23,919 nt of DNA from a virus, in IMG/VR virus record IMGVR_UViG_3300010392_001157, positions 1 to 23,919 of that record; one strand, given 5' to 3'. Shown here piece by piece: positions 1-19,280 of the stretch. Each line of letters starts with the position of its first letter. Positions within the stretch are counted from its first letter, which is position 1. A model generated the notes under the pieces. It did no database searches. It was given only the letters and a program-made list of their open reading frames with translations, and was not told where the DNA came from. The position numbers were made by a program, and so were the translations under genes.

Positions 1-368
1 CGGTTTGTTTCGCCTGCCGGTCTCCAGATAAAGACGTGCCCCTCAGCGCCAACATAGGACTGTGTTAGAGCTGTCGAATCCCAGGTCGGACCACCTGTTA
101 GTGCGCCCTCAGTATCCGCCGTACGGACCCGCATCGTGTCACTGGTGCCTAGATTGGTTGCCAGCAAGGCTATCAAATTAAAATCCGATACTGCGCCCAG
201 GTCGATAACAAGGTAAGGAGTGCCACCAGTGCCTTCCCATACGTCTGTGGGTTGCATGGTCTGTAAGTTGCTTGCCGGGCCTGCTGCTGTCTCTGGTGTA
301 CCCGTTATCGCAGTAGCAGCGTCTGACAGTATCGGCGTGGCGATTATAATATTAGTTGTTTCGTCCAT
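1..368 (-). CDS. Putative tail accessory or receptor-binding protein with galactose-binding-like fold (partial, N-terminal 122 aa)
   Basis: The reading frame starts at an ATG (366-368), three bases past the tailspike stop, and runs off the left edge, so only the N-terminus is visible. No strong Shine-Dalgarno is seen, which suggests coupling to the tailspike gene. The visible protein is rich in Ala, Thr and Gly. Around residues 47-75 it has a stretch beginning VWEGTGGTPYLVIDLGAVSD, which resembles the start of discoidin / F5-8C-like carbohydrate-binding domains seen in phage tail proteins. This position, last in the tail module, is where host-recognition proteins usually sit. Family assignment rests on pattern recognition of a fragment. 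A tail-fibre protein or a generic virion protein are alternatives. Confidence 0.6.
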   Translation of the reverse strand, partial: MDETTNIIIATPILSDAATAITGTPETAAGPASNLQTMQPTDVWEGTGGTPYLVIDLGAVSDFNLIALLATNLGTSDTMRVRTADTEGALTGGPTWDSTALTQSYVGAEGHVFIWRPAGETN

Positions 369-371
369 AAC

Positions 372-1736
372 TTAACTTGACGCAATGCCGCTTGTGAATA
401 GGATAAGCTCACTTGCATATAATGCGCCTGGAGCCGTACTGTCCTGAGCCTCTATCGCTAAATAATTGCCTAGCGTGGCTGTGGAGTTATGCTTAATACC
501 AATAACAGATAGCCTCCCAACGCCTTCGATTCCATCCCATATCCATTCGCATGTGCCGTCTGTTATGGTTGCACTTGCAGGGTCGATTACCTCTCCTGTT
601 GGTCCGCCGGACCCTGCCGATGTCCCCGCATCTGTGCATATATACCGATTCGTTCCATCATTTTCGACCAGATCACCGACAGAATAAGCAGTGGTTGCAG
701 CCCATGCCGCAGTATCGTCTTCACAACAGCGGCAAAGGGTTGTATGTGTTACGCCATCCCGTGTTGTAGTCGCGTACACATTTGATGCCCCGCTGTGCCC
801 GTTTATAACCAGAGTCCCCTTGTCACTGATGCACAGCCTCTCGACGTTTGCCCCAGCACTTACAGAATGATATATATCTGTGAACGTGTTAACGGCAACT
901 AGTGCCCCGTCATCATTCTGGCCATAGATGTGACACTTGCACGGACCCTCCACCCAGAGACCATGAAATGAGTTACCGCTTGCCCCAGCACCTAAAAATA
1001 TATTCCATCCGATATGAGACCCCGCACCATTAAATGCAGCGTAACTATTCTGGATATATCCACCGAACCACGTATTCCCCCCGGCAGATGTCAGATGCAG
1101 CCCCGCCGCGTCATTACCGTCTGCAGTACATGAATGGAAAGCGCAGGCATTCGTTGGGAGACTATTAGGTGTCCGAGCAGTCCAGTTATTAAACCCCTGA
1201 GCAAGCACCCAGCCGCTTCCGGCATTATCATGCGAATATGTCGATTGGAAGAATGTACCAATACACTCCTGCAGAACGACACCATGTCTGCCACACTCTG
1301 ACACTTCGACGCCTTGAATGTATGACGGCGTAGAAAAGCGTAGCAAGGACAAGCCATCTTGTGATGTTTCCGCTAGATCACCAACAATAGAAAAATCTCT
1401 CAGGAATGTTCCCCTGTTATTGTATGGCGCACCGGCATAGGCATTGCGTATGATTTCACCGTCGTAGTCAGATGTAAATATAGTCCCCAGCGTACTCTCA
1501 CCCATCAACGACGCGCCCTGAGTTATCTCCAGAGTGCTGGCTAAATAGTATTCCCCTGAAGGAACGAATACCACTCCACTCACTGCTGCAGCATCATCCA
1601 GCGCATCTTGTATGGCCGATGTATCGTCTGTTGGATAGCCAGTTCCTGCCGCACCATAATAGCTGGCATTGAATAGTCCGCCTATCGCAGCAATTTCGGC
1701 CTTTGTCGTATCGTTAGCATTTGCTATTGTTGGCAT
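372..1736 (-). CDS. Tailspike / receptor-binding protein with pectate-lyase-like beta-helix (454 aa)
   Basis: Residues about 22-80 carry the classic pectate-lyase-3 entry motif: a YYGAAGTG..TDDTSAIQDAL stretch, then GVVFVPSGEYYLAST and a GASLMGES turn. This motif begins the right-handed parallel beta-helix of many phage tailspikes and depolymerases. Residues about 345-405 hold a separate small domain (TAYSVGDLVEN, ICTDAGTSAGSGGPTG, ITDGTCEWIWDG) of the repeat type common in phage tail proteins and reminiscent of short carbohydrate-binding modules. Probable role: binding and perhaps cleavage of a surface polysaccharide on the host. The start ATG lies 4 nt beyond the upstream stop, so translation is likely coupled. 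Catalytic residues cannot be assigned by eye, so enzymatic activity is inferred only from the fold. Confidence 0.85.
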   Translation of the reverse strand: MPTIANANDTTKAEIAAIGGLFNASYYGAAGTGYPTDDTSAIQDALDDAAAVSGVVFVPSGEYYLASTLEITQGASLMGESTLGTIFTSDYDGEIIRNAYAGAPYNNRGTFLRDFSIVGDLAETSQDGLSLLRFSTPSYIQGVEVSECGRHGVVLQECIGTFFQSTYSHDNAGSGWVLAQGFNNWTARTPNSLPTNACAFHSCTADGNDAAGLHLTSAGGNTWFGGYIQNSYAAFNGAGSHIGWNIFLGAGASGNSFHGLWVEGPCKCHIYGQNDDGALVAVNTFTDIYHSVSAGANVERLCISDKGTLVINGHSGASNVYATTTRDGVTHTTLCRCCEDDTAAWAATTAYSVGDLVENDGTNRYICTDAGTSAGSGGPTGEVIDPASATITDGTCEWIWDGIEGVGRLSVIGIKHNSTATLGNYLAIEAQDSTAPGALYASELILFTSGIASS

Positions 1737-1740
1737 TTAC

Positions 1741-3093
1741 TTATCCCAAGTCCAAACTTTCACCGGATAGTGTCTCGACAAGCGTGGCGGATGATGCTGT
1801 CTCAAACAATTCGGTAAATTCATTGTCCGTCATCAAGAGCCGGAAAGTCGTTCTGCCTGACGTAGTATTTTCCCGAATACCTAAAATTATCATATCTGCA
1901 TCAATGCCGAATCGATCATAGTCAAGAGTGATGGTCTGACCTATCTGGTATCTGAATTGCTGTCGCCTGGTAGTGATATCAATCCGGTCAAACGTCGCTC
2001 CGTATAGTGCTTGTTGCCTCGCATTCTCTGTGTCTGCATCGGCGGACGTTGAAAGTAGCGTGTCTTTAACGACAACCCGCGCCCCGAGATGCCTTTCCTT
2101 TATCGATGCCGTTTCATTCGTCGAATACTGGTATTCCCGAGATGTCAGAGTGCGCCGAGCTGATGTAGCTGCACCAACAAACTGGCTTTCGTTGTGGACT
2201 GTCCATGATTTAGTGCTACCGATACGTCGTCGCCATGATGGCGGAACAGTGCGCACACGCTTAAACGACCCTTTGACTATATCGTCCTCCGTGATGGTCC
2301 CGGAACGGAAACGTTTGCGGAGGACAGCTATAGTCAACAATCCAACTCGGTTAAACGTCCAGGCCCCGCCGATGCTGTGCATCAGATCTTTAACCACCGA
2401 GGCAATAGTCCCGCCGGTTATGTATACACCCGAGACCGACCGGCTGCTGTCCAGGTGCGCAGTGTAAAACGAAGGCAGGTTTAAATCGCTTGCAGTCAGG
2501 TCGGATCTGTCAATAACAATACGCTTTATAATATGGGCAGCGTTACTAACATACCCATCTCCAGAGTTATCCCCTTGTACGTCTAGAGTTAGTAGCTTAG
2601 AAGGTGGTGCACCTAGTTTGATATAACCACTATCCAGTTGAGTTTTGTAGTATCCAGGCTCAACACTGGCCGCTGTTATATCCGCCACGTCACCAGCCGA
2701 ATCCAAGGCGAGTCCACCATCAAAAGCAACCGCAGACTCCGCCGAACCATCGTGGAACTGATACACCAGATTTGTAGAATCGACTTGTATCGGCGTAATG
2801 TTCGTGACCGCGCCATAAACTAATGGCTTCTCGTTGCCTTCCAGTGTCGCATCACCTTCGAGCCCACCTACTCCGGTGTAGGTCGTCTCCTGGATGTCCT
2901 TATCCAATAAGGTTTCCTTACCTCTGAAGACAATACCTAGCCGTCTGCGGTCATAGGTGATACCTTCCGCTGTACCCTTGAGGACAGTGATATATTCATC
3001 AATAGCAAACCCCTCAGCGCCCAGCTTTACATCAACGTCGCGCCCATCCCACGCATATGCGGCGAGGTCATCGCGAGCACCATCCCCAATCAA
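1741..3093 (-). CDS. Tail-tip / baseplate protein, C-terminal part (450 aa), continues the frame of the upstream ORF after an in-frame TGA
   Basis: This is the larger part of a phage tail-tip protein of the kind encoded right after the tape measure. The N-terminal DGxxDDLAAYAWDGRDVDVKLG pattern and the TYTGVGGLEGDATLEGNEKPLVYG pattern (about residues 70-93) match a widespread siphovirus family in which they follow an FGxIEL motif. Here that motif ends the preceding ORF, in the same frame, separated only by TGA at 3094-3096. The nominal start is a TTG directly after the stop, with GGAG only 3 nt before it, too close for a good ribosome-binding site. This piece is therefore more likely made as part of a 553-554 aa protein by readthrough, or the gene is broken, than independently translated. 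The C-terminus (about 260-440) contains long beta-strand-rich segments compatible with hub-domain structure. Confidence 0.8.
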   Translation of the reverse strand: MIGDGARDDLAAYAWDGRDVDVKLGAEGFAIDEYITVLKGTAEGITYDRRRLGIVFRGKETLLDKDIQETTYTGVGGLEGDATLEGNEKPLVYGAVTNITPIQVDSTNLVYQFHDGSAESAVAFDGGLALDSAGDVADITAASVEPGYYKTQLDSGYIKLGAPPSKLLTLDVQGDNSGDGYVSNAAHIIKRIVIDRSDLTASDLNLPSFYTAHLDSSRSVSGVYITGGTIASVVKDLMHSIGGAWTFNRVGLLTIAVLRKRFRSGTITEDDIVKGSFKRVRTVPPSWRRRIGSTKSWTVHNESQFVGAATSARRTLTSREYQYSTNETASIKERHLGARVVVKDTLLSTSADADTENARQQALYGATFDRIDITTRRQQFRYQIGQTITLDYDRFGIDADMIILGIRENTTSGRTTFRLLMTDNEFTELFETASSATLVETLSGESLDLG

Positions 3094-3096
3094 TCA
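3094..3096 (-). other. In-frame TGA interrupting the tail-tip gene
   Basis: The ORFs at 3094-3405 and 1741-3093 are in the same frame and are separated by this single TGA (context CTGGAG TGA TTGATT on the minus strand). The conserved family motif FGxIEL-x-N-x-DG spans the stop: FGNLE precedes it and LIGDGARDDL follows. The alignment spacing is kept if TGA occupies one residue position. Other genes here end normally in TGA (for example at 7054, 9360, 9923 and 15352), so a global code change is not the explanation. Confidence 0.85.
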
Positions 3097-3405
3097 CTCC
3101 AGATTGCCGAATGATGTGCGACCCTGTGCGGATTCATCATCACCAAACAAGTCCACATTACTGTCGCAGGCATTTTTTAAGTATGCAGGCCAGTGCTCAT
3201 CGTCAACAATTGGATGTGCTAATCCAATGGAGGCACGGACATCTGTTTCAGATGCAGTAGATGTATCATATGGTGTCGCATGGAATAGAAACGACCTTGC
3301 GGCTTCCTGATCGGCTATGAGATCTACAGTAGTGGATGCTACTGACTCATCGATAGTGGAGCTGGCAAACCCTATAGACGCGAATGGATTAAGCCCAAAT
3401 AGCAT
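3094..3405 (-). CDS. Tail-tip / baseplate protein, N-terminal part (103 aa before in-frame TGA)
   Basis: The ATG overlaps the tape-measure stop (TAATG arrangement at 3403-3407), so this is the true N-terminus of the tail-tip gene. The protein has Ser/Thr-rich beta-type sequence, then HPIVDDEHWPAYLKNA and a terminal GRTSFGNLE. The last motif is the first half of the conserved FGxIELxNxDG segment of this family, so the fragment ends in the middle of a domain. Taken alone, the 103-aa product would be a truncated protein. Either a small fraction of ribosomes reads through, or the gene is a recent nonsense mutant, or the base is a sequence error. Confidence 0.75.
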   Translation of the reverse strand: MLFGLNPFASIGFASSTIDESVASTTVDLIADQEAARSFLFHATPYDTSTASETDVRASIGLAHPIVDDEHWPAYLKNACDSNVDLFGDDESAQGRTSFGNLE

Positions 3406-6400
3406 TAGGCAGCAGCCGGTGCATTAAGTAGTAGTTTAATGTCTGCATTCATTTCTACGATTTCTTGTTTCAGACTTCCTATTTCTTCTTGGAGTGCAGT
3501 TACTATCGCGTTGTCTCCAGTCGTGATAGCAGCACCAACATCTTGCAGAGTAGACACAGTGTCTCTCTGATCGACCAAGCCACGGACAGTCGAATCCAAG
3601 AAGTTGGTAAACTCAAAGAACTCCGCCGAACTCCCAAGCTGTTCACGCTTGAGATCTATGAATCCTGGTAGGAAGGAAGCCAGCGACGACCGTGCTGATG
3701 GGTCACTGCGAGCATCGGACAGCAGTTGATTGAATACACTTTCGGAATTGTTTATCTGTGACCCCAGTGACAGGCCGCCTGCGCTGGTAGTCTTGAGGGA
3801 TGTCAGAACAGATAGCAGACTAGCATTGGCCGACATAAAATCAGCGGCGAATCTATCTAGCACCTGCTGACGTTCTAATGCGTTCAGTCTTTCGACATCG
3901 ACCAGATCAGCACCGAGGGTTACAGCATTAGCTAAACGATCTTTAGCAACCCGCTCGACCGATTCTAAGGCAAAGATTAATGGTTCTTCTATAGCCAGTA
4001 TCTGGTCTGTAATCGATGTATTGAAATCAGTCGTTAATTTTTGAGTGGCTTTGGCTAAGCGTTCGTTGACTTCCTCGACCGAAAAGCCCAGGTCTACAGC
4101 GACATCAGACAGCTCCCGGAACTGTTCAGTGATCGCCTGCAACGCCACTTCAGCATCATTCAGCGGTTCGCCCTGTTCGCCAAACATATTGATCAACTCG
4201 ATGATTCTGCCAGCCTCACCTACCAACTGATCGATGTTTCCAGGATCTCGGCCAATCTGGTTTAGCAGCCCAGATGCAACAGTGTTTTCAGAAACAGCAT
4301 CGATGATCCTGACAAGTCTGGTTTTGACAACATCGAAGCTTTCGTTATCGAATGAGTGCGCACTGAAGAACTGTCCAGTTCCAGAAAGCGCACCACGCAC
4401 ACGGGCTATCTGGTCAGGATCAAGAAGTTTAGCGATTGACTTATCAATGCCCGCTAGGCTGCGTACAATGGCGTCTGCATCGATATTCTTGGAGGTTGAT
4501 ACACTTAGGCCACCGAATGGTGTTTGGACGCCACCGGCCCCTGTGTTGAATCCGAACTTCTGCTTGTCGTTTCCACCGCCAAATAGGCTGCCGATTCCAC
4601 CACCCAGAAGCCCGCCGCCGAACCCGCCCAAGGCCGACCCGAGGGCCATTGTACCAAGTGACCCCAAAGGCCCACCCAAAGCGAAACCTAGATAAGCTCC
4701 TGCTCCTGCACCCAGCAAGCCACCGGCCAATCCGCCTGCTGTACCGGCTGTACTACCGAACCCGCCGCTGAGATATGTCCCGCCCAGAGCGCCCCCAACA
4801 CCAAGCAGTGCGGGATGAGCCAACAGTCCCGAGAGTGCTCCACCACCAGCGAGTGCCCCACCCGCAGTACCACCCGCAGCACCCGCAGCACTACTACCGA
4901 ACAACCCTAGCCCGCCGAGCAGTTGAGGTCTGAACACTAACAAAGCAGCCATTTCACCAGCAAGCCGGGCCATAATATCTTTTACCAAATCTGCAAACGA
5001 CTCGAATTCCAGCTTGCCGTGGCGAAAAGCTTCGGTAAAAGCATTACCGAATCCACGTTGGATATTCTCTGCAGCTCGATCAAACGGTTCTTGAATTTCG
5101 CTTGCCGCTTCCTTTGCAGCCTCTGCCGCTTCCTCTGCCGCTTCAGCTGCTTTGCGCCTGGCGTCTTTCGTCTCATTTATGGCTTTAGTTTCAGCCTGCG
5201 TTGCCATAACTATACGGACAATTGCCGCTTCTTGATCAAGTGTTGCAGTCGTCCCGGCACCACGAAGCGCATTCTCTATTTCTAATTCATCATTCAGCGC
5301 GGCAACAGCTATTTCACCTTGCCCAACCGCTTCGGCCATGCGCTCTTGTTCGTCTCTAGCAATACTTAATTTCTCAATATATTGTTCTAGTGTTTTTTGG
5401 CCTTGTGATCCTTTGCCGCCTAGTAGGTGATCTAATGCACCGGCTAAATCTTCAGGCTTCTTTTTACCTGCTTCATCTATTGCCTTAGTAACCTTCTCTA
5501 TCGCTAATTGCCATTCTTCCAATGATTTACGTTCTGCATCCAATTCTTCTTGTAAGCGCGTCTTTACTGCCTTTTGATGTGCCGCAGGCCCACGAATGTT
5601 TCTGTTACGCCTACGCTCAAGATCACGGATTTTCCGCTCTGCTTCCTTCGCTTCTATCCTTGCTGCAGCTCTTTCTTGCTCCAGCATTGTCTTTGTCACT
5701 AACGCAATGTCTTTAGCCAATTCAACCTGACTCTTACCAAGATTAAGCAATTTTTCTTTTAGTTTTTCCGCACGTTCTTCTGCGTCTTTAGTCCGTTGAT
5801 TCCACACCCATAGGGCCCCAGCAGCCGCTGCAATAACACCAGGCAAACCACCAAAGATTCCTAATAGCCTTGATGCCCTACCTAAAAAGGTTAAAGGGAT
5901 TGCTGCTTTTAATGCCTTATTATATTTTGTTGTTGCTCGTTCCAGTCTACCCGTTGACCTTACAAGCTCGTTCTGTTTCTTCCCCCATTTACCTATGACT
6001 CCGATATGCCCAGTTGCAATGACTAATTCTGCCTGTCTTGCCCGAACATGGGCCAGCGTTGCGGCTGTGGCTGCTATCCTTGCGGTTACTTCGGCTTTTA
6101 ATGCAATTGTTCCTTTTACAGTCGCAACTGTTGCCCCAATTATTGCTTGCACTAAACGCACCCCAAGATACCCTGCAAGCACCAATACAATATCCGCCAC
6201 TGTCTCCAAATTGCCAGCCAATGATCTTATTCCGGCTGCTAATCTTCCAGTGACATTAAATTCCTTATTTATTTCACCAGTCAAAGCCTGAAACTCATTT
6301 CTCAAGTTCATAAAAGCGCGGCCGACAGTATCAGGCATCTTTGCAGCTTCTTGCGCAACCCTAACGGAGGCATTGTTGATGGCCGTTACCATTACATCTG

Positions 6401-7061
6401 CAGTTATTTCTCCTTGTTCAGCTAACTTTCTGAATTGCGCCAATGTAATGTCATACTCATCTGTAATCGTCTTAACGATCACGGGTACTTGTTCCATTAC
6501 AGATCTTAGTTCTTCACCACTCAGCCTCGATGAAGCAATTGCCTGAGATAACTGAATCATTGCCGCTGTTGATTCTTGCGCGGATGCACCACTAATCAGG
6601 GTTAATCGCTGGATGGTTTGGACAAACTTGAGAACATCCTGCGTTGTAGCGCCGATGTCTTTTCTAACTCGTTGTGTCCGAATAAATAACTTGGCCGCCG
6701 ATTCCATGGACACGCCAACTTCATTGGCTGAATCCCTTAACGACTGCATAACGAATTTCTGTTCTTCGAGACTATCAGTTACAGTTTTTACCCTGGCATT
6801 GATCAGCACAAATTGATCAGCAACATGGACAAGCCCTTTTGCTGTTTGAGTTATACCTACACCGATCAACAGATTGCGCATCTGCCTCAATGGACCCAAT
6901 GTTTTAGCAAGCTGTTTTTCTAATCGCTTTGAAGCCGATTCAAACTGCTTTGTACCACGGGTAGCACGGACACTGCCTTTAGTAAAGGCGTCAAGATCCT
7001 TGTTGGCTTTCCTTACCTCCTTGGAGTCAACCTTGATACCTAATAAAGCAAAGTCAGTCAT
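3405..7061 (-). CDS. Tail tape measure protein (1218 aa)
   Basis: This is the longest gene of the window and sits after the tail chaperones, as expected. Residues about 60-205 match the tape-measure N-terminal domain (SANEVGVSMESAAKLF, GASAQESTAAMIQLSQAIA, LSGEELRSVMEQVP). Hydrophobic segments lie near residues 285-310 and 400-418, an Ala/Lys/Glu-rich coiled-coil region near 420-680, and a long Gly/Ala-rich membrane-active-looking tract near 710-830 (about 4570-4920). The C-terminus is again helical. The role is to set tail length as a scaffold inside the tube and then help DNA entry across the host envelope. At 1218 aa it predicts a tail of roughly 180 nm by the usual 0.15 nm per residue rule. 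The start overlaps the upstream chaperone frame by 8 nt. Confidence 0.96.
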   Translation of the reverse strand: MTDFALLGIKVDSKEVRKANKDLDAFTKGSVRATRGTKQFESASKRLEKQLAKTLGPLRQMRNLLIGVGITQTAKGLVHVADQFVLINARVKTVTDSLEEQKFVMQSLRDSANEVGVSMESAAKLFIRTQRVRKDIGATTQDVLKFVQTIQRLTLISGASAQESTAAMIQLSQAIASSRLSGEELRSVMEQVPVIVKTITDEYDITLAQFRKLAEQGEITADVMVTAINNASVRVAQEAAKMPDTVGRAFMNLRNEFQALTGEINKEFNVTGRLAAGIRSLAGNLETVADIVLVLAGYLGVRLVQAIIGATVATVKGTIALKAEVTARIAATAATLAHVRARQAELVIATGHIGVIGKWGKKQNELVRSTGRLERATTKYNKALKAAIPLTFLGRASRLLGIFGGLPGVIAAAAGALWVWNQRTKDAEERAEKLKEKLLNLGKSQVELAKDIALVTKTMLEQERAAARIEAKEAERKIRDLERRRNRNIRGPAAHQKAVKTRLQEELDAERKSLEEWQLAIEKVTKAIDEAGKKKPEDLAGALDHLLGGKGSQGQKTLEQYIEKLSIARDEQERMAEAVGQGEIAVAALNDELEIENALRGAGTTATLDQEAAIVRIVMATQAETKAINETKDARRKAAEAAEEAAEAAKEAASEIQEPFDRAAENIQRGFGNAFTEAFRHGKLEFESFADLVKDIMARLAGEMAALLVFRPQLLGGLGLFGSSAAGAAGGTAGGALAGGGALSGLLAHPALLGVGGALGGTYLSGGFGSTAGTAGGLAGGLLGAGAGAYLGFALGGPLGSLGTMALGSALGGFGGGLLGGGIGSLFGGGNDKQKFGFNTGAGGVQTPFGGLSVSTSKNIDADAIVRSLAGIDKSIAKLLDPDQIARVRGALSGTGQFFSAHSFDNESFDVVKTRLVRIIDAVSENTVASGLLNQIGRDPGNIDQLVGEAGRIIELINMFGEQGEPLNDAEVALQAITEQFRELSDVAVDLGFSVEEVNERLAKATQKLTTDFNTSITDQILAIEEPLIFALESVERVAKDRLANAVTLGADLVDVERLNALERQQVLDRFAADFMSANASLLSVLTSLKTTSAGGLSLGSQINNSESVFNQLLSDARSDPSARSSLASFLPGFIDLKREQLGSSAEFFEFTNFLDSTVRGLVDQRDTVSTLQDVGAAITTGDNAIVTALQEEIGSLKQEIVEMNADIKLLLNAPAAA

Positions 7062-11303: not shown

Positions 11304-11575
11304 TCTTCAGGATTCTTCCTTGGCCGACCGCGTGGCCTCTTAACTGGTTCTTCCTCTTTTTCTTCCGGGGTATCCTCCCACGGGGGTACGTCCGTATCGA
11401 CCGGCTCAGCCAACTCGACAACATCCTGTTTCAATAGCATATCCGCGACATTAGGTGCCGGTTGAATCACCGCACCGATGGCGTAATAACCATACCGACG
11501 TTTCAGCCGATAAAACTTCTGATTTAGATTCCCCGCACGCTGACTCAGAGTCGCCCTGCTTGTTGATTTACTCAT
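11300..11575 (-). CDS. Small protein with AT-hook-like C-terminus, unknown function (91 aa)
   Basis: The N-terminal half is basic with a YRLKRRYGYYAIG segment. The middle is acidic (PEEKEEEP), and the C-terminus reads KRPRGRPRKNPEE, which contains the RGRP core of AT-hook DNA-binding motifs. Similar small proteins occur in phage head modules, but the role is not known. Binding of packaged DNA or internal capsid DNA is one possibility, and a simple basic tail is another. It overlaps the genes on both sides by 4 nt, so it belongs to the late operon. Confidence 0.7.
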   Translation of the reverse strand: MSKSTSRATLSQRAGNLNQKFYRLKRRYGYYAIGAVIQPAPNVADMLLKQDVVELAEPVDTDVPPWEDTPEEKEEEPVKRPRGRPRKNPEE

Positions 11576-12753
11576 CTGTTTACCTCGCTAGGTTTACCAG
11601 ATACATCATAATCCATTAATGTTTGATAATGCGGCTTTAAATCCTTACATGGCCATGCGATTAATTCCTGCAAATGCCCAACTATGACTTTAGGCGCTAG
11701 ATGTAAAGTATATCCAGCCTTACGCCACCTTAACCAGAATTCAATATCTGCATCTATCTTGCCATCGGTATAACGACCATCTTCATTGGGTATGCTTTCC
11801 ATCCATGGCCGCTTATGGTTTCTCAAGCTATCGGCACGAAATATAGTCAGACCGAAATGACCTGTGGTAATCGGGATAAGGTGTCGCGCCAAATTGTAAT
11901 CGGGAATCGATGTTATATGATTGCCGTTATCATCCCTCATGCCAAACAGCGCCGAATCACATCCCCGTTTACTCTGCAGCGAACAAATAGCATCGGCTTC
12001 AGGAACCGCTTCCATCAGTCGATACAGTTCCAATACATCCTGGTAGTCAAATAACGTATCGTAATCGCACGTCAAAACGTATCTGACTGTATCAACAGAA
12101 ATCTGATCTTCTAATATCTCGCTGGCTATCTGGTGCCAATACGCACCACCAGCAATCTGATAAGCAACACCAGCCCGACTAAACGCATTCATGGCGCACC
12201 GGAAATGGGCCACAGGACCGAACCGCGGGGCTGATAGGACTGCAGTTAACCCTTCGCACCGGGTAGCGTCTCCAGACGGCTTATACCCGCTCAGATTCAA
12301 CGACACGGGCAGTGCAGCACAGTCCTGTATCTCTGACTCCCATCGGTGTATGCGTTCAAGCCCTGCCTCTAGAAATACCTCTTCTAAGACCTCAGCATCA
12401 AACGCAGATTTATGATAATCATTCTCATCTGTCTGGCCACCCATCAGATAGCCTTGAACATTGATTGCCTTACCACTTAAATATTCACGGGCAATATATT
12501 CCAGATCTGGAACCGCTACCCGCAATCGACCACCAGGCTCTAGCTTATCAACCCAATGGCGAATGACATTCATTACCTCTGTGTGTGAGAAATGCTCAAG
12601 CACATGGCTTGCACGGATCTCATTGATTGAATTATCCGGATAGTCCAGAGGATAGACTTCCTGACAACTAAGACGGTCAACTGAAAGGAATCCGGGGATC
12701 TCATGACCCCCGGACCCTAAGTCCAGCTTTAGTTCAGCCGGCGCTTTTGTCAT
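11572..12753 (-). CDS. Two-domain SAM-methyltransferase-like / glycosyltransferase-like protein (393 aa)
   Basis: Residues 8-22 contain the Rossmann motif I, LKLDLGSGGHEIPGF, followed by an acidic residue at D26, ASHVLEHF (48-55) and LEPGGRLRVAVPDL (71-84). This is the order of class I SAM-dependent methyltransferases. The second domain starts near residue 170 and has VLTCDYDTLF, giving a DYD at 230-232 (DxD metal-binding pattern of GT-A glycosyltransferases), and DADIEFWLRWRKAGY near 335-349, typical of glycosyltransferase acceptor regions. Likely role: transfer of a sugar and a methyl group to a virion or cell-surface acceptor. Substrate is unknown. Placement between capsid accessory and connector genes is unusual. 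The start overlaps the previous stop by 4 nt. Confidence 0.82.
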   Translation of the reverse strand: MTKAPAELKLDLGSGGHEIPGFLSVDRLSCQEVYPLDYPDNSINEIRASHVLEHFSHTEVMNVIRHWVDKLEPGGRLRVAVPDLEYIAREYLSGKAINVQGYLMGGQTDENDYHKSAFDAEVLEEVFLEAGLERIHRWESEIQDCAALPVSLNLSGYKPSGDATRCEGLTAVLSAPRFGPVAHFRCAMNAFSRAGVAYQIAGGAYWHQIASEILEDQISVDTVRYVLTCDYDTLFDYQDVLELYRLMEAVPEADAICSLQSKRGCDSALFGMRDDNGNHITSIPDYNLARHLIPITTGHFGLTIFRADSLRNHKRPWMESIPNEDGRYTDGKIDADIEFWLRWRKAGYTLHLAPKVIVGHLQELIAWPCKDLKPHYQTLMDYDVSGKPSEVNR

Positions 12754-18581: not shown

Positions 18582-19280
18582 CTACAACACCATTGCTATC
18601 TGACTTGTTTCTTGTAAGAACCTGTCTTCAGCAGCGTCAAAATAATCCTTGTCTATCTCACAGCCGACAAACTCACAGCCGAAATAGTGCGCGGCTATTG
18701 CACTCGAACCACTGCCTAGATGTGTGTCTAGGATTCTCATATCTGGACTGGCATAATTTTCCAGTATCCACTGATACAACCTCATAGGTTTCTGTGTCGG
18801 ATGAATTCTTATCTCTTTGTTTTTCATATCCTGTTGAAGCATACCATTCCACCGAAAAGCAAACTTTCTAACTGCTGTCTTAAAACTTGAAAATGCAAGC
18901 TCACAATCAGCAAAATCACCGCTGTTTTGTTTATCCCAAACCAACCAACACGGGGATGAACAATTGAAACGATTCGCAAAATGATTTGCCCCCCATATTA
19001 TCTGGTTTTTACTCACACGAAATAGTTCACTAAAATAAAACTGTGATGGTGGTTCCTTGTCCCTTCCGTGAAATGGTTTATACGATACGGCTTGTATCTC
19101 AGTGCCCCTTGTGTTTTTTCTATCTATTCGACTACCGAAAGGTTTTGTCCTAGAAGCATTTTGTTCACCGCTTTCACCTATCCCATACGGCGGGTCAACA
19201 ATAGCCAAGTCAAACGCCTTATCTTCAAGCGTCTTCATGTACTCCATACAGTCAATGTTCAACAATGTTACGTTATTCAA
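18582..19280 (-). CDS. DNA methyltransferase, beta-type N6-adenine/N4-cytosine (232 aa)
   Basis: The catalytic motif DPPY is at residues 29-32, HPTQKP at 160-165, and the SAM-binding motif THLGSGSS at 186-193. The order (catalytic first, then target recognition region, then SAM motif) is that of the beta class. The protein modifies DNA, probably to protect phage DNA from host restriction or to mark it. No restriction partner is seen nearby, so it looks like an orphan methylase. The start is TTG at 19278-19280, overlapping the TerS stop as TTGA. The nearest internal Met would remove the N-terminal strand. It splits the small and large terminase genes. Confidence 0.92.
   Translation of the reverse strand: MNNVTLLNIDCMEYMKTLEDKAFDLAIVDPPYGIGESGEQNASRTKPFGSRIDRKNTRGTEIQAVSYKPFHGRDKEPPSQFYFSELFRVSKNQIIWGANHFANRFNCSSPCWLVWDKQNSGDFADCELAFSSFKTAVRKFAFRWNGMLQQDMKNKEIRIHPTQKPMRLYQWILENYASPDMRILDTHLGSGSSAIAAHYFGCEFVGCEIDKDYFDAAEDRFLQETSQIAMVL

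Follow-up and report, generated by a model that had tools for sequence, protein, structure and literature searches.

The in-frame TGA that interrupts a putative baseplate hub gene in the virus record analyzed here (the window, 23,919 bases) is private to this contig; it does not characterize the gene family, and it is ordinary. It is almost certainly a single-base change, found in this contig only, of a codon for an aliphatic residue, and represents either a base or assembly error or a real nonsense allele. Comparison with a nearly identical sister contig and with more distant homologs carries this conclusion.

The interrupted gene and its surroundings

On the minus strand, the frame running from 3405 to 1741 comprises 554 codons and a final TAA, and reading it through reveals one internal stop (n=1), a TGA at 3096..3094 that occupies codon 104. 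The original prediction described a gene split by a single in-frame TGA with both halves in one frame, and this description holds; its coordinates for the gene are also correct, to which we add the strand, which was not stated. The gene sits between a tape measure gene and a tail-spike-like gene, and the features of this region are as follows.

1741..3405, minus strand: putative baseplate hub (tail-tip) gene of family phrog_8917, 554 codons with one TGA interruption; profile match across the stop (E=4e-81) and AlphaFold model of the intact sister protein
3094..3096, minus strand: in-frame TGA, codon 104, within predicted beta strand 99-105; from the frame, the alignment of relatives and the model
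3097..3405, minus strand: N-terminal 103 codons, whose last residues are FGNLE; from reading the frame
1741..3093, minus strand: remaining 450 codons in the same frame, with TTG as first codon and GGAG 3 nt upstream; from reading the frame
3405..7061, minus strand: intact upstream gene for the tape measure protein, whose stop overlaps the ATG of the hub gene; TMP_3, E=4e-53
372..1736, minus strand: intact downstream tail-spike-like gene with a pectate-lyase-like region; profile matches

Because the phrog_8917 match in the PHROG profile search (residues 3-525) runs across the stop, the interrupted frame is, judged from its sequence, one gene and not two. The N-terminal 103-codon part alone gave no match to any PHROG or Pfam family. 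The peptide around the TGA reads FGNLE-stop-LIGDGARDD. An alignment of homologous loci defines the motif G-x-[ILVM]-x-[LIV]-x-N-x-x-G-x-x-D at this place, with G109 and D112 invariant and G100 and N106 nearly so, and the position of the TGA falls inside it. The earlier suggestion that a family motif continues across the TGA is thus confirmed by the same motif in the relatives.

Two other minus-strand genes of the window were noted in passing. A 393-amino acid protein encoded at 11572-12753, inside the head and tail gene cluster, matches methyltransferase family phrog_6636 over its first 85 residues (E=1.6e-8), and the rest of it looks glycosyltransferase-like by eye. A DNA methyltransferase (phrog_67) with a TTG start is encoded at 18582-19280, directly upstream of the terminase large subunit.

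Codon 104 in the sister contig and in wider relatives

Relatives of the hub gene were gathered from viral contigs, bacterial genomes and named phages and then aligned. A single very close relative turned up, the sister contig IMGVR_UViG_3300027845_000119 (7,542 bases; entries L002/L005/L008), so a TGA common to the immediate lineage of the window is possible. It was the sole match in three DNA-pattern scans around the stop, for which a three-member alignment was used in place of a five-member one that was too diverse for such scans, and a DNA similarity search in named phage records found nothing. The hub genes of the sister and the window are 99.5% identical, with 8 differences in 1,665 nt, made up of five synonymous changes, two missense changes and the change at codon 104, which in the sister is a leucine codon one base from TGA. 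The sister hub ORF is intact and encodes 554 amino acids.

The wider relatives tell the same story. The original prediction had proposed a search of related phages for a sense codon, and that search, now run, yields leucine in the sister and L, I or V at the aligned column in 22/22 further homologous loci; these 22 include likely duplicates (L009/L018, L010/L019 and L014-L016), leaving about 18 independent loci. A stop at codon 104 is found in 0 of 23 homologous loci, the sister included. The column is aliphatic because it lies in a predicted core beta strand, residues 99-105 of the model described below.

Relatives thus have a sense codon, and apart from this site the frame is conserved and unbroken, the pattern that marks a nonsense mutation or a base error. 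A base error, one of the explanations put forward originally, fits the sense codon of the sister and the otherwise intact frame. Dividing the two sources by inference, we consider that the TGA probably stems from an error in the consensus or assembly, or from a consensus drawn from a minor variant; a true nonsense mutation in the sampled phage population is a substantial possibility that falls short of being probable. In the hub gene, a stop results from about 3.5% of all possible single-base substitutions. Since 0.28 stops would be expected among the 8 sister differences if these were random, one stop is unremarkable as an error or as an unselected mutation.

Normally the gene, free of any stop, would yield one full-length protein of 554 amino acids; this protein presumably closes the tail tube at its tip and links the tube to spike and fiber proteins. 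Were the TGA real, the ribosome would stop at residue 103, partway through a core beta strand, and this copy of the phage would probably be tail-defective, with a truncated product that we infer to be non-functional.

The original prediction also raised the possibility that a decaying prophage had recently acquired an inactivating mutation. The first half of this proposal, a recent nonsense mutation, fits the data; the second half, general decay, is not supported because the neighboring genes are intact. The stop itself is what speaks for decay. Against it, the other minus-strand genes, including those for terminase, portal, protease, major head, tape measure and tail spike proteins, are open and of normal size, and in the downstream spike gene the window departs from the sister at only five scattered sites, most of them synonymous. 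Nor was an integrase seen among the genes examined, the record being a fragment. We therefore regard a real nonsense mutation within general prophage decay as very unlikely. The private single-base change offers a practical lesson: when a phage contig assembled from a metagenome shows a single in-frame stop, close relatives should be consulted before anyone proposes recoding.

The relation between the window and the sister contig is mosaic. Positions 1-4581 of the window align to 2627-7198 of L005. From position 1 to about 3500 the two are nearly identical, with 17 differences; from 3500 to 4581 identity is lower, about 72-89% per 250-base bin, and beyond 4581 there is no DNA match to L005, the N-terminal parts of the tape measure proteins (1218 vs 998 amino acids) being different. 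This looks like recent recombination near the border of the tape measure and tail-tip genes, or chimeric assembly of one of the contigs.

Translation through or after the stop

Programmed readthrough of the TGA would give two versions of the tail-tip protein, one short and one long, as the original prediction envisaged. The stop is single, the frame is conserved on both sides of it, and TGA is in general the leakiest stop codon (PMC5289835). However, the stop is not conserved in relatives, and readthrough is not supported because a sense codon stands at this position in the sister and in each of the 22 further loci. The stop also lies inside a core strand, so that the short version would not correspond to a domain. 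The 3' context is likewise not permissive: a T follows the TGA, and +4U goes with low read-through (PMC5289835; tetranucleotide data largely from yeast, with supporting work in E. coli). No stimulatory element was detected. The 100 nt downstream of the TGA form no stable fold, folding more weakly than most shuffles (z=+1.45); an Rfam scan of 2700-3500 at E<=1 gave no match; and a search for tRNA genes across the window found none, hence no suppressor tRNA. Taken together, programmed readthrough appears highly improbable. We give equally little credence to a related scenario, in which the TGA has become fixed in the window's own narrow lineage and recently evolved readthrough by the host is enough for working tails.

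The frame would be formally open if TGA were read as an amino acid, whether through reassignment (code 4/25) or as selenocysteine. As originally proposed, however, TGA is a working terminator elsewhere in the window: of the 21 minus-strand genes counted, 12 terminate in TGA, in many cases where the stop closely overlaps the following start, and TGA therefore has not been reassigned. The relatives have L, I or V at the site, not W, G or C, and the tRNA and Rfam searches provide no support. The chance that TGA is decoded in this way is negligible.

Phages commonly restart translation where stop and start signals overlap, and an in-frame TTG directly follows the stop, so that the locus might be thought to encode two proteins, the second restarting at that TTG. 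Here, however, GGAG ends directly before the TGA, too close to the TTG at 3 nt, and the next in-frame starts after the TTG, at codons 167 and 214, lie at least 62 codons further in and lack a clear ribosome site. The spacing and the later starts agree with the earlier view that restart at the TTG is unlikely. Moreover, no relative has the gene split at codon 104, and the break cuts a strand and a conserved motif. A split gene with stop and restart is thus extremely unlikely.

The modeled hub fold and comparison with known systems

The full protein has no match in Pfam, and a profile search of PDB sequences gave chance-level matches only. We therefore relied on a confident AlphaFold model, built from the intact sister protein rather than the window copy, together with 15 relatives (mean pLDDT 80.9, pTM 0.80). 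Foldseek matched this model to the T5 tail-tip protein 7zqp_b (E=1.3e-19), Mu gp44 (1wru, E=6.5e-11) and T4 gp27 (1k28_D, E=1.6e-7), and it also matches phage tail proteins in a viral structure library. Because of these matches to hub proteins, the gene product is most likely a baseplate hub protein, a prediction based on the modeled hub fold and on a gene that adjoins the tape measure gene in the tail module. The label "tail-tip gene" applied originally is upheld by the same two observations. As a useful by-product, phrog_8917, listed as of unknown function, may now be assigned to the baseplate hub fold on the strength of the model.

The window gene resembles phrog_8917 in sequence over the whole protein, including the position of the stop, but the homologs that were read have an uninterrupted frame. 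Homologs identified by tblastn include those of EBPR siphovirus 2 (gp72), Caulobacter phage Sansa and Microcystis phage Me-ZS1. With the T5, Mu and T4 hubs it shares the fold, as modeled for the intact sister protein, and the gene's place beside the tape measure gene, although sequence identity is only about 10% and the window copy would end after residue 103. The coat protein of coliphage Q-beta exemplifies programmed stop-codon readthrough in a phage. The hub gene is like it in that a long open frame continues beyond an in-frame TGA; in Q-beta, however, the stop marks a domain boundary and is conserved, whereas here it occurs in one contig only and falls inside a strand.
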